DNA of 28,925 nucleotides from a virus. The translations under genes were made by a program, and so were the position numbers. The notes beneath the pieces are model-generated. The model was not told the DNA's origin. It worked only from the letters and a program-made list of their open reading frames with translations, and made no database searches. Below, one piece after another: positions 18,800 through 23,872 of the stretch. The stretch covers positions 1-28,925 of IMG/VR virus record IMGVR_UViG_3300030117_002102; one strand, 5' to 3'. Position 1 is the first letter of the stretch, and every line of letters begins with the position of its first letter.

Positions 18800-18984
18800 T
18801 AGATTTCCTCGTCTTCTATTGATTTAATGTAATCAATTACACTAGCTTGCCCAGCTCTATACATAATTGATTCAATTGGTTCTTTTGGGTGAATTGGTTC
18901 CCACCCGAAGTTATCGTCTAACTTCTTTATTAACTCTGTTAGTCTTTCGTTGTGAAGTTTAAGAGTATTGAGGGAGATTGACAT
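18799..18984 (-). CDS. Small conserved-looking protein, unknown
   Basis: A 61-residue protein from ATG 18984 (MSISLNTLKLHNERLTELIK), overlapping the 3' end of the reductase beta gene by 26 bases; a TTG at 18996 would add four residues. The first half is a probable amphipathic helix, the second has FGWEPIHPKEPIESIMYRAG and an acidic tail (SIEDEEI). It is coupled by TAATG to the proline-rich gene. It may act with either the reductase or the tail genes. No family recognised. Confidence 0.65.
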   Translation of the reverse strand: MSISLNTLKLHNERLTELIKKLDDNFGWEPIHPKEPIESIMYRAGQASVIDYIKSIEDEEI

Positions 18985-19672
18985 TACTATGTTCAAAAAA
19001 TGCAGGCATTCTTGCTGCCTTCGTCTGAGAAAACTCTGGTGCTCTACCCTCGTACATTAGTCTGTCACTGGCATCTAACCAAAATTTTTTGTCCAAATAT
19101 CTATCTTCATTTCTTTTTAAAGGTTCCATAACCCAGTTGATTGTTGCCTTCCGTAGAAGGTCAAGAGATCTACTTGGTTTAAGTCCTAGCTCTGCACATA
19201 CCAATGAGTTAGCTGCCACATGAACTTGCTCATCTCTTGATATATCTGCGCTAACAGTTCTTAAACCGGCATCACCACAAAATCTAAAGAATGGTAGTAA
19301 TACAAAAAAGATTGCTCTCTCTGCTACTAATGCTTTACAAATTGTGTGGTCTGGGTGAGCTTCCCAAGCTGCACGTAAGCGTAATGCTTCGGCTTCGGCT
19401 TTATCATCTACGCCTAGTGCGTTGGTGATGTATCCAAGTGCAAGATCATGTTTAATCTCGTCTTTGACATTGCTTTCTAAAAGTGCTCTGGCAGTGTCGG
19501 GAACTTTTTTATCAAGTGCGTCTGTAATAAACTCGCCAACTGGTAACTCCATATGGCGTATTGCAAGAGCACGGTAGATGGTTTCTTCTGCACCTTCTTT
19601 AAGTTTTCCTTTAGATGTTTGTACGGGTGTCCAAGTTCTTTTCCGGGACAGTAATTTTATGTAGGGATTCAT
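18959..19672 (-). CDS. nrdB: Ribonucleotide reductase class I beta subunit (divergent)
   Basis: A 237-residue ferritin-like metal subunit that makes the oxidising equivalent for the alpha subunit. Metal-ligand pattern visible from the ATG at 19672: Glu72 and His75 (DEIKH), Glu118 (VAERAIFF), Glu148 and His151 (DEQVH); the first carboxylate is probably Glu42 or Asp51. Where E. coli NrdB has Tyr122 (four residues after the first ligand His) there is Leu79; the nearest Tyr is 81. It is much shorter than E. coli NrdB (376). The C-terminus NLPQYS has a Tyr that could join radical transfer. The start overlaps the alpha stop as ATGA; a TTG start nine bases upstream is less likely. A P-SSP7-type pair once called class II was later reassigned to class I, from memory. 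Confidence 0.85.
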   Translation of the reverse strand: MNPYIKLLSRKRTWTPVQTSKGKLKEGAEETIYRALAIRHMELPVGEFITDALDKKVPDTARALLESNVKDEIKHDLALGYITNALGVDDKAEAEALRLRAAWEAHPDHTICKALVAERAIFFVLLPFFRFCGDAGLRTVSADISRDEQVHVAANSLVCAELGLKPSRSLDLLRKATINWVMEPLKRNEDRYLDKKFWLDASDRLMYEGRAPEFSQTKAARMPAFFEHSNVNLPQYS

Positions 19673-21075
19673 TGCTGACAATCACAACCTATTTCGTCTG
19701 GTTTATTACTCATTATTTCTGCCAAGTAATCGTCAACTGAGGTATCTTCTAGAGCTGCATAAGCATCTGTCTTATCCTGTGTATCTCCCATTACTTGTAG
19801 TGCATAATATAAAGAAGTTTGTGGTGAGTTAAGCCACTCTTCTATAAATGCCTCATCGTAAGTCACCATGTCGCTCCAACTGTTGAAGCTATAGCCATGA
19901 AGCAATCCTGTTCTATTTAGCATGATCATTATCTGATCTGCTACTTGTTTATAACTCTCCCATCCAACTTCAGATGCGATTTCAACGTCGCCATATTTTA
20001 CCTGTTCAACACCAAATTCACCTGAATCCCTGTCAACTACTCGACTAATTGGTGGTGCTATTTCTGGTGTAGAAGTAAAGCCATGAATGTCTCTACTCCT
20101 GTAAGAACAACTGGCGGTAGGGGCTATCGCGAATGCCCGTTCCATGTTGTTCTCACGTGCAATGTTAGCTGCCTCTTGTATGCCGAGGAAGAGCTCACGT
20201 GCAGCTAATCCCGCGTAACCTTCGTAAGGCTCAGCATTATTACATGCTTCAAGTGCCTTACCAAACTCGGCATAGGTAATATTGTTATTGGCTAAGAAGT
20301 TAGCTAAACCAAGCATCCCTAGTCCTACTTGTCTGTCATTCTCTGGCTTTAAGTATTCACCAGACTGTCCAACACCTGTTTTACCATGGAGGCTGCACAG
20401 TTCTTGCATGCCTTCACGGAAAGCTGGTCGGAGGTCGCCGATACGACAGGCACCGAGATTGATATGCTGTAGGAGGCACGTTCCACGTGAGGGCAAATAA
20501 ACTTCCAAGCATACATTCGATCTAATTCTTTTTCCATTATTGTCATGTTTTATTTTTGATAACCAAATGTCTCCTCTTGCAATTCCTCCAAGTATTGCTT
20601 CCTTTGTTTCAGGGTTTGAATTATTCCAGAGTTCTTTGGTGAGGTCAACACATCGTTTGACCCATGGGAGCTCGTGTCTTTCTGTGAACACGAACTCAAG
20701 GATATCGGCGTGATTAATATCAAGATGGAGGACGCAAGCACCGTTCCTAAATGTGCCCCCCCTACGTAGTATTTCATTTAATGTTGAGTAAATTTTTCCG
20801 AATGAGACAGGTCCTGATGCAACGAGTGAATCAGGTCCTTTATTTGTTGTTGTTCCTCTTGGTCTAACGTCCGACAAGTGGACTGCGACTCCTGCTCCAT
20901 ATCTAAGAGCATGCGATACAAATCTCCAGCTCGCTTCGATGCCATCACTTCCTTCCATGCTGTCCTGCACGTTAAAAATTGTGCAGCTTACCGGTAGACG
21001 GTCAGTAGGATTATCAATCCATGCTTGGACTCGACCAGTCCTAGCTATTTTGTTGGGTTCTATTTTCGATTTCAT
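19669..21075 (-). CDS. nrdA: Ribonucleotide reductase class I alpha subunit, N-terminally short
   Basis: A 468-residue catalytic subunit reducing ribonucleotides for phage DNA synthesis from host RNA and nucleotides. Active-site residues: Cys31 (PVSCTIFN) and Cys210 (LGACRI) as the substrate-reducing pair, and Asn187-Val-Cys189-Leu-Glu191 as the N-x-C-x-E radical site. APTASCSYRS around residue 318 is the phosphate-binding loop. Tyr423-Tyr424 (SLYYALQ) matches the tandem Tyr of class I radical transfer, which argues against class II. The C-terminal CDCQQ gives the redox cysteines as CxC rather than the usual wider spacing. The E. coli N-terminal ~190 residues, including the ATP cone, are absent, so overall allosteric control by ATP/dATP is probably lost. 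It overlaps the DUF3310 gene by 35 bases. Confidence 0.93.
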   Translation of the reverse strand: MKSKIEPNKIARTGRVQAWIDNPTDRLPVSCTIFNVQDSMEGSDGIEASWRFVSHALRYGAGVAVHLSDVRPRGTTTNKGPDSLVASGPVSFGKIYSTLNEILRRGGTFRNGACVLHLDINHADILEFVFTERHELPWVKRCVDLTKELWNNSNPETKEAILGGIARGDIWLSKIKHDNNGKRIRSNVCLEVYLPSRGTCLLQHINLGACRIGDLRPAFREGMQELCSLHGKTGVGQSGEYLKPENDRQVGLGMLGLANFLANNNITYAEFGKALEACNNAEPYEGYAGLAARELFLGIQEAANIARENNMERAFAIAPTASCSYRSRDIHGFTSTPEIAPPISRVVDRDSGEFGVEQVKYGDVEIASEVGWESYKQVADQIMIMLNRTGLLHGYSFNSWSDMVTYDEAFIEEWLNSPQTSLYYALQVMGDTQDKTDAYAALEDTSVDDYLAEIMSNKPDEIGCDCQQ

Positions 21076-22127: not shown

Positions 22128-23450
22128 CTAATGTACGTCAGCCCATGTTGGTCCTTCTTTTGCTTCGGCAGCTATGGGACAACGTAATTGGTAATATTCT
22201 CCAGCTAATATTGCTGATGTTTCTAGTTCTCTTTTTACTCCAACTGCGTGATAAGGTCGACATTCATACTGCAATTCGTCGTGAACGAATGCAAGTTGAT
22301 GTGTGTGAAAAGGTTGTAGTCGATCATTTGCAATGACCATCCAACGCTTTGCAACAATACCAGCAGAGCATTGAAGTAAATAATTTAACGCTTTGTGCGG
22401 GCTATCGACCAGCACCCTTCGTCCGTCCAATGCCAAGAGGTAACCGTTAGCAGCCTTATTTGAAACCGCTCCCAATAAGTCGGAGAGTCCTTCGATAGCA
22501 GATACGAAAGCCGTTCGGATCTCGGATCCTTTTTTTCTAGCTTCCTTGGGTTGTAAAGAGTTATCATAACTCGTTCCTATTTTTTCGTTTCCAGCACCAT
22601 AAAGAAAGGCATAAGTCACAGTCTTAACTTGGCGTCTGGTGATTCCTATTTTGTCTGCATTTACTTGATGTATATCATCGTTTAGTAAGATATCGGCGTA
22701 TCGACCTCCGTCATATCTGCCAAGGTAATGTGCAAGCATTCGTAGTTCAATACCACTTAAATCTGCTCCTACCATTGTGTGTCTTGGACTGGCAGTAAAT
22801 AGTTCTCTAAATTCTTTATCAGCAGGTACCTGTGCTAAATTCGGTTTTCTGTGAGCACATCTAAATGTGTTTGTAGAAACTGAACAGTTGTGGTGAATCC
22901 TACCTTTAGTCGTAACAAGCTTGTTCCATGCGTTCACGCCTTCGGATATCATTCCAAGCTTCTTCTTTATCGTCAAACATTTCGCACATGCTAGCGAGAA
23001 GGGAATATTTATCTCCGTCAATGTAATCTCGTCGATAATTGGTTTCCCAGTCGTAGTGGTCTTGCTCAATTTGACATTCAAATGTGTCGTCAGAATCCAT
23101 GCTATATGGTCTCTCGATGTGGGGTTAAACTCCTTTATTCGTTGTATTTCACATCCTGCTCTGTATCCTTGTGTTGCGTTATCTCGTTTAGGAGTGAACA
23201 ACGATCCTGCAACGAAAGGGAATTGTTTTCGAAGTATGTCAATAGTTTCTTCCATCTCTCTTCTGAGATGTGACTCAAGTTGCTGAGCTTTTGATTCATT
23301 AAATGTCCATCCATGAATTTCTTGTTCAGTCAATATTTCTGCGACGCGATGCTCTAATCTACACGCGTCAGATAAGGGCGGAAGTGATCGCATAATTTTG
23401 TAGTTACTTTTACGTCTTGGACCATGTAGTCCTGCATTTCTTGACTCCAC
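22128..23450 (-). CDS. 5: DNA polymerase, polymerase domain (gene 5, 3' part; split)
   Basis: A 440-residue frame holding the family A polymerase domain. Motif A is VGADLSGIELRMLAHYLGRY (catalytic Asp), motif B is RRQVKTVTYAFLYGAG with Tyr at the E. coli 762-equivalent position, and motif C is AFVHDELQYECR (catalytic Asp). The C-terminus KEGPTWADVH mirrors T7 (MGPNWAICH). The 5' end lies in the -1 frame relative to the exonuclease piece and overlaps it by 97 bases. The nominal start is GTG 23450 and an ATG lies at 23393, neither with a clear ribosome binding site. Homology to T7 starts only at DACRLEHRVAEIL, equivalent to T7 VDIEHRAAWLL. Together the two pieces are ~590 residues, a normal cyanophage polymerase length. 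Probably one gene with a frameshift, or a frameshift-translated gene. Confidence 0.93.
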   Translation of the reverse strand: MESRNAGLHGPRRKSNYKIMRSLPPLSDACRLEHRVAEILTEQEIHGWTFNESKAQQLESHLRREMEETIDILRKQFPFVAGSLFTPKRDNATQGYRAGCEIQRIKEFNPTSRDHIAWILTTHLNVKLSKTTTTGKPIIDEITLTEINIPFSLACAKCLTIKKKLGMISEGVNAWNKLVTTKGRIHHNCSVSTNTFRCAHRKPNLAQVPADKEFRELFTASPRHTMVGADLSGIELRMLAHYLGRYDGGRYADILLNDDIHQVNADKIGITRRQVKTVTYAFLYGAGNEKIGTSYDNSLQPKEARKKGSEIRTAFVSAIEGLSDLLGAVSNKAANGYLLALDGRRVLVDSPHKALNYLLQCSAGIVAKRWMVIANDRLQPFHTHQLAFVHDELQYECRPYHAVGVKRELETSAILAGEYYQLRCPIAAEAKEGPTWADVH

Positions 23451-23872
23451 TCTTGCCAGTCACTGGTCTTACCAAAGTCTCCTTTGTATTCGCCTAATCT
23501 GTAACCGTATGCTTCGAGTGAATGTCTTCCATATAGTTGTAGTGGCATATGTCGCCATTGCCTTCGCTTATCTATCTCCATCAAATTTGGATGAAATAGG
23601 CGAGAAAGGACAAGAGTATCAACGCATTCAGCACAAGTAAAAAACTCACTGCTAAGCTTCCGTAGAACAGGAAGGTCATAACCAATAATGTTATGCCCAG
23701 CGAGAGTATCAGCTTCCATAAGTTGATTGATACCATCCCTGATACTGGGCGTCTCGTCATCTTGATCGTTATATACGTAGCTTTTTTCCTCTTTGGTACA
23801 AAAGGTGGAAATGCAATGTATTTTAGAAACGTCATATAATAGTCCGTTTGTTTCTATATCGAATACCAGCAT
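23354..23872 (-). CDS. 5: DNA polymerase, 3'-5' exonuclease domain (gene 5, 5' part; split)
   Basis: A 172-residue frame equal to the proofreading domain of T7 gp5. Catalytic acids: Asp and Glu in VFDIETNGL (residues 4-6), NIIGYDLPVL near residue 61, CVDTLVLSRLFHPNL near residue 83, SLEAYGYRLGEYKGDF near residue 117, and QDYMVQDVKVTTKL near residue 147, matching T7 DYMVQDVVVT. It ends shortly after, at a TAG, where T7 continues into the polymerase domain. The ATG overlaps the stop of a small upstream ORF (TAATG) and has no ribosome binding site of its own. Confidence 0.93.
   Translation of the reverse strand: MLVFDIETNGLLYDVSKIHCISTFCTKEEKSYVYNDQDDETPSIRDGINQLMEADTLAGHNIIGYDLPVLRKLSSEFFTCAECVDTLVLSRLFHPNLMEIDKRRQWRHMPLQLYGRHSLEAYGYRLGEYKGDFGKTSDWQEWSQEMQDYMVQDVKVTTKLCDHFRPYLTRVD

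Follow-up and report, generated by a model that had tools for sequence, protein, structure and literature searches.

According to our analysis, the nrdB-like gene of this stretch of DNA very probably encodes the radical-generating, R2-fold subunit (beta) of a class Ø ribonucleotide reductase (RNR), with the oxidant stored on metal and the usual class I relay. We infer with high confidence that the oxidant is metal-centred, and it most likely contains manganese. The stretch as a whole (28,925 nucleotides, hereafter the window) comes from a virus record of 45.8 kb and of the P-SSP7/P-GSP1 kind. Its closest matches are Prochlorococcus and Synechococcus podoviruses, with P-GSP1 matching at 84.7% across 60% of a 10-kb segment, and the virus that carries the gene is a marine cyanophage. 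The coordinates of the two genes and of the residues discussed below are collected in Table 1.

Table 1. Class Ø reductase genes of the window and residues assigned within them (nucleotide positions of the window).
Feature	Position	Strand	Basis or conservation
nrdB-like beta, class Ø, 237 aa (ATG 19672, stop 18959)	18959..19672	-	ORF, PHROG 6799, relatives
nrdA-like alpha, class Ø, 468 aa	19669..21075	-	ORF, PDB 7URG, alpha alignment
Trp14 codon, Trp48-type residue	19631..19633	-	220/220 where a residue is present, gap in 2
Glu42 codon, metal ligand 1	19547..19549	-	222/222
Gly46 codon, ligand 1 + 4; Lys in sister branch; class Id Lys71 position	19535..19537	-	
Glu72-x-x-His75, metal ligands 2 and 3	19448..19459	-	Both 222/222
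Leu79 codon, Tyr122 position	19436..19438	-	Leu 219/222, Phe 3/222
Tyr81 codon, C. trachomatis Tyr129 position	19430..19432	-	Tyr 217/222, Phe 5/222
Glu118 codon, metal ligand 4	19319..19321	-	222/222
Asp147-Glu148-x-x-His151, Asp237-type residue and ligands 5 and 6	19220..19234	-	
Tyr236 codon, Tyr356-type, second-last beta residue (then Ser237)	18965..18967	-	222/222
Alpha Cys189, finger-loop thiyl Cys (S-CBP4 C185; name from PMC9531940)	20509..20511	-	163/163
Alpha Tyr423-Tyr424, radical-transfer dyad	19804..19809	-	Tyr423 163/163; Tyr424 162/163 and one X
Alpha C-terminal Cys-Asp-Cys (CXC), C464-D-C466	19678..19686	-	Alpha alignment

The beta subunit is a member of the group known as class Ø or Cyano SP RNR, for which the name "If" has also been proposed. 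The alpha of the window is short (468 residues), with the barrel as its only Pfam domain and no ATP cone, and has a YY dyad at 423–424 and a CXC tail, and the beta, ferritin-like and 237 residues long (about 240 are expected), is encoded directly after it. The residue pattern given for the class, with Phe or Leu at the Tyr site, the ligands E, E, H, E, E, H and the second-sphere residues D, D (Table 4 of PMC6370689), is reproduced by Leu79, by E42, E72, H75, E118, E148 and H151, and by D71 and D147; E42 is also the first metal ligand listed for the P-SSP7 beta (Table 3 of PMC6370689). The C-terminal Tyr with almost no tail behind it is represented by Tyr236, followed by Ser237. The betas of P-SSP7 (YP_214198.1) and P-GSP1 are 79% and 93% identical to that of the window, and those of P-SSP7 and S-CBP4 share its ligands, the Leu at the Tyr site, the second-last Tyr and the location directly after a short alpha; nothing notable differs in the window protein. 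The preliminary description was aware that reductases of the P-SSP7 type had been reannotated from class II to class I. However, the missing Tyr itself, which it offered as an observation, was already in print for the family (PMC6370689; PMC9531940): Harrison et al. (2019) found the P-SSP7 beta, noted the absence of the Tyr and proposed the subclass "If" (PMC6370689). The window protein is a new member of this family. The cofactor or biochemistry of class Ø/Cyano SP was called uncharacterised in 2022 (PMC9531940) and in a 2026 preprint (PMC12918982), and no later characterisation of a class Ø beta was found in the open-licence literature.

To describe the family we used 327 full-length matches from 327 of 334 loci, which gave 222 distinct betas after identical sequences were merged; these are a sample, with the best 80 loci kept per search and with search patterns that excluded positions 79, 81 and 46. 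In the remaining 7 of the 334 loci the beta frame is incomplete, because the contig ends or the frame is shifted. The placement of Leu79, four residues past His75, on the E. coli Tyr122 site was correct in the preliminary description: Tyr occurs there in 0 of the 222 relatives, and the column requires two changes on the tree. Glu42, Asp71, Glu72, His75, Glu118, Asp147, Glu148 and Tyr236 are identical in all 222 sequences, and His151 is His in 221, with one X. The five ligands named earlier (Glu72, His75, Glu118, Glu148 and His151) were thus recovered, but the sixth, Glu42, had been overlooked. This conservation across 222 relatives makes Leu79 and the ligands traits of the family rather than a quirk or an error of the contig. 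The shortness remarked on earlier, about a third relative to standard NrdB, agrees with 237 residues against the class I beta average of 346 (PMC9531940), i.e., 31% shorter.

In three loci, nrdB is split: L087 2001-2713 (P-GSP1), L085 2001-2716 and L367 1501-2215 (S-CBP4). The cause is a run of A one base shorter than that of the window at the Lys-Lys-Phe-Trp codons; the shortened run, absent from all examined contigs with a full beta, either reflects a misread homopolymer or marks a -1 frameshift site. The DNA polymerase of the window (minus strand, 22128-23872) lies in two overlapping frames, 23872-23354 and 23450-22128; that of P-SSP7 is likewise in two frames, and its record notes a split gene or a programmed shift. 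Other loci (L157, L160-L166 and L168-L171) are contigs of GTDB genomes with a beta 47-92% identical to the phage protein, from bins assigned to Bacteroidetes, Flavobacteriales, Euryarchaeota, Planctomycetota and others. These have the look of binned phage contigs, so mis-binning may account for part of "class Ø in bacteria."

The beta matches PHROG 6799 (E 1.3e-134). This family and many phage records label it "ribonucleotide reductase class Ia beta subunit," and the alpha is annotated in some phage records as "class II" or nrdJ; both labels clash with the residues, and the "class Ia" label does so because the class Ia Asp ligand and Tyr are absent. No Pfam family was assigned to the beta at E up to 1. 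A phmmer search of the beta against the PDB gave no related solved structure by sequence, and its only hits, Izumo sperm proteins (E 0.029), were discarded as chance matches.

The AlphaFold2 model of the window beta, built on 76 aligned window and locus sequences, reached a mean pLDDT of 91.5 and a pTM of 0.88, and its predicted ligand-bearing helices span residues 29-53, 59-86, 110-132 and 135-162. The best PDB chains in Foldseek were R2 proteins, with a putative class I R2 of B. halodurans, the class Id R2 of F. johnsoniae and the class Ic R2 of C. trachomatis among the first four; only the first chain in the list had E < 0.001. With VIA-align, all 50 entries listed were RNR R2 by title (Z 18.4-20.0, rmsd 3.0-3.8, 214-233 residues aligned), including C. 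trachomatis R2c 4d8g (Z 19.4, rmsd 3.0, 214 aligned) and the class Id protein of L. blandensis (Z 19.4, rmsd 3.1, 217 aligned). For an S-CBS4-like beta carrying Lys46, a second model gave a pLDDT of 91.5, the same helices and Z of 18.3-19.8 to R2 entries. The comparison of a predicted structure with the NrdB classes, suggested in the preliminary description, thus supports the R2 fold, but the fold Z scores tie Ic, Id, Ia, Ib and Ie within 1 to 2 units, and neither HHalign nor Z sorts the subclasses. The last aligned model residue (237, or 239 in the second model) falls on E. coli 357 in the holocomplexes 6w4x and 9db2, which is consistent with Tyr236 being the Tyr356 equivalent, in a tail with pLDDT near 60. 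An idea that the invariant Pro44 breaks helix B, as in class Id metal loading, found no support in the Gly46 and the Lys46 models, both of which have a continuous helix 29-53.

Two readings that would remove the oxidant from the metals, or the radical chemistry from the beta altogether, appear highly improbable. A radical could be stored on Tyr81, or on another residue, in place of Tyr122; Tyr81 is only two residues past position 79 and is Tyr in 217 of the 222 relatives. However, it is Phe in the other five, through five separate changes on the tree, and in the predicted continuous helix 59-86 the helix geometry would turn residue 81 about 200 degrees round from residue 79. In a profile alignment, E120-x-x-H123-x-x-x-F127-x-Y129 of C. 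trachomatis R2c lies, gapless there, under E72-x-x-H75-x-x-x-L79-x-Y81, so that Tyr81 aligns with Tyr129 of a protein that stores its oxidant as Mn(IV)/Fe(III) (PMC8463856, PMC11883743). These R2c sequences were the nearest in a profile search of the PDB (E 0.059-0.074, not significant and used for register only). A comparison with 13 viral class Id-like sequences by hhalign gave probabilities of 1.9% and 3.1% (not significant, again register only). In both registers, E42 matches ligand 1, Leu79 the Phe/Tyr site and Tyr81 the +2 Tyr. Judged by these alignments, the tree and the predicted helix, Tyr81 is not the radical site, and the earlier view that it does not replace Tyr122 stands. The preliminary description had called for a non-Tyr oxidant, either a dimetal cofactor or a modified residue. 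The dimetal part is retained, but the modified-residue option is left with no candidate, because position 79 has no conserved Tyr, Trp or Cys and all ligands are kept, unlike in class Ie.

Alternatively, the alpha could be a class II, B12-dependent enzyme and the beta-like protein could have another job. By BLAST, alphas of this kind are nearer class II than class I (PMC9531940), and the PDB matches of the window alpha beyond 7URG and the class I chains 6dqw and 6dqx are B12-dependent reductases. Its match to the S-CBP4 alpha structure 7URG has E 7.8e-212, and in that structure the YY dyad is described as stacked on the thiyl Cys, filling the adenosyl pocket (PMC9531940). The dyad is kept in 163 of 163 alphas (one with X at the second Tyr), the beta follows the alpha directly, its ATG overlapping the nrdA stop by 4 bases, and the beta retains Trp14 and Tyr236. 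The class II reading is therefore as doubtful as a Tyr81 radical, and a class I-type beta partnering the alpha, as assumed in the preliminary description, is supported.

With the oxidant on the metals, two metal ions held by Glu42, Glu72, His75, Glu118, Glu148 and His151 would react with O2 or reduced oxygen species, and the oxidising equivalent would remain on the metal pair because position 79 has no Tyr. The hole would then pass from the metal site through Asp147/Trp14 and Tyr236 to Tyr424/Tyr423 and finally Cys189 of the alpha. We take the relay roles of Trp14, Asp147, Tyr236, alpha Tyr423/Tyr424 and Cys189 from their positions and from established knowledge of class I. The absence of the Tyr, together with the retention of all ligands, makes the metals the best place for the oxidant.

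The nature of the metals can be approached through a comparison with the known subclasses. Class Ia and Ib proteins have Asp as ligand 1 and a radical Tyr, where the window beta has Glu42 and Leu79; in class Ie the metal carboxylates are lost and the Tyr site bears DOPA, whereas here six ligands are kept and there is no Tyr. All four carboxylate ligands of the beta are Glu, as they are in class Ic, class Id, R2lox and BMM proteins, with Asp in Ia/Ib (PMC6370689, Table 3; PMC4118035). The all-Glu pattern occurs in both Mn/Fe protein groups and in bacterial multicomponent monooxygenases, with the caution that the metal cannot be read from whether ligand 1 is Glu or Asp (PMC4118035). Class Ic R2 of C. 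trachomatis resembles the window beta in the non-Tyr residue at the Tyr122 site (Phe, Leu or Val in class Ic), the all-Glu carboxylates, the Tyr at +2 and the Gly at ligand 1 + 4. However, the window beta is a third shorter and has no significant sequence similarity to it, and class Ø forms a separate branch in the trees of PMC6370689. The class Ic second-sphere Glu119 is replaced by Asp71 (222/222), and Tyr222, conserved among R2c and relaying an electron in cofactor assembly (PMC4118035), by Asp143 (Asp in 213, Glu in 9 of the 222), in a register taken from the non-significant C. trachomatis R2c profile alignment; because of these two replacements, the beta is not a plain class Ic protein. 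For the branch with Gly46, to which the window belongs, we rank a class Ic-like Mn(IV)/Fe(III) cofactor first, at about even chances; a class Id-like Mn2(III/IV) centre comes second, as a possible but rather unlikely solution, and a di-iron high-valent centre or another solution third, as improbable.

A dimanganese cofactor could also apply to the whole family: Mn2(III/IV) would form from superoxide or H2O2, and Gly46 members would be comparable to lysine-less class Id proteins. We regard this as tentative and somewhat unlikely. Class Ø shares a Glu as ligand 1 with class Id (NrdBi; Mn2 proteins of F. johnsoniae and L. blandensis), and part of each family carries a Gly-to-Lys change at ligand 1 + 4; Lys or Arg46 occurs in 56 of the 222 relatives exactly at class Id Lys71/Lys174, within a similar stretch (E-V-A-V-K-S-F in F. 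johnsoniae, E-L-P-V-K-D-F in class Ø S-CBS4). Some class Id members lack the lysine and may nevertheless bind Mn2 (PMC6754362). A search of the 45.8-kb record turned up neither an NrdI nor a glutaredoxin gene, and class Id needs no NrdI (PMC8463856), but the missing NrdI is a weak point since the record may be a fragment. Against a class Id-like chemistry, the Tyr of class Id at the Tyr122 site (Tyr104) is essential for activity (PMC8463856), whereas the window has Leu79 and Tyr is found in 0 of the 222 relatives; class Id proteins are also about 100 residues longer, and their subgroup Lys at ligand 1 + 4 is Gly46 in the window. The helix B break of the Id type is absent from both AlphaFold models (29-53 unbroken), but apo class Id is also unbroken. 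The preliminary description added that less dependence on iron would suit an ocean phage; Cyano SP abundance is anti-correlated with iron, with host distribution given as the cause (PMC12918982).

Position 46 divides the family. The 222 relatives have Gly in 165 (including the window phage), Lys in 54, Arg in 2 and Ala in 1. In an IQ-TREE analysis of 95 representatives, with column 46 left out, the Gly rows formed one side of a branch with a support of 99/100; the split was present in all 200 bootstrap trees examined, from a bootstrap that had not fully settled. P-SSP7, S-CBP4, P-GSP1, Mic1 and the window phage have Gly46, and Syn5, SS120-1, S-TIP28 and S-CBS4 have Lys46. In class Id, the corresponding lysine (Lys71 in F. 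johnsoniae, Lys174 in L. blandensis; ligand 1 + 4) is described as conserved and proposed to attract superoxide (PMC8463856), and it arose from Gly in a subgroup only (PMC6754362). The word "lysine" has 0 uses in the main text of Harrison (PMC6370689) or Burnim (PMC9531940), no literature on a superoxide lysine in cyanophage NrdB was found, and the Gly/Lys46 split appears to be new relative to what these two defining class Ø papers describe. PMC6370689 assigns the S-TIM5 beta to class Id, but its residue at ligand 1 + 4 is Gly, so this beta is no control for the lysine.

In all 215 loci where both genes could be read, some of them duplicates of one contig, Gly46 goes with CXC in the alpha (141) or Lys, Arg or Ala with CXXC (74), and the pairing is the same on 162 distinct alphas (101, 58, 2 and 1). 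Freshwater phages of the Mic1 type, whose alpha lies apart from the beta, have a Gly46 beta but a CXXC alpha (6/6 alphas read). This exception shows that Gly46 and CXC are not tied and rules out their functional coupling; the remaining pairing amounts to a single event, since it follows one split of the tree. The Mic1-type loci (L081, L360-L365) hold a class Ø beta with no adjoining alpha, the two genes being about 12 to 13 kb apart in Mic1, and their alpha frames exceed 500 aa. Should the Mic1 types prove to be the outgroup, class Ø would have acquired Lys46 a single time, in parallel to the gain in class Id.

A more speculative and improbable reading is that class Ø uses two activation chemistries, in which the Lys46 branch would form dimanganese with superoxide and the Gly46 branch Mn/Fe with O2. 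The Lys46 branch (S-CBS4, Syn5, SS120-1 and S-TIP28 types) would then have gained the Gly-to-Lys change of class Id independently. If this is true, phage reductases with no Tyr would have tuned the oxidant supply in photosynthetic hosts by one residue.

Class Ø RNRs are the smallest known oxygen-dependent reductases, and in one study they form an early-branching group of classes I and II (PMC9531940). Their beta is reported to be unstable without metals (PMC9531940), a complication for any work on metal dependence. With the Gly/Lys46 split come naturally matched pairs, and a swap of a single residue, by which the oxidant (O2 or superoxide) and the metals could be probed, and the comparison would test whether the superoxide lysine of class Id evolved twice.
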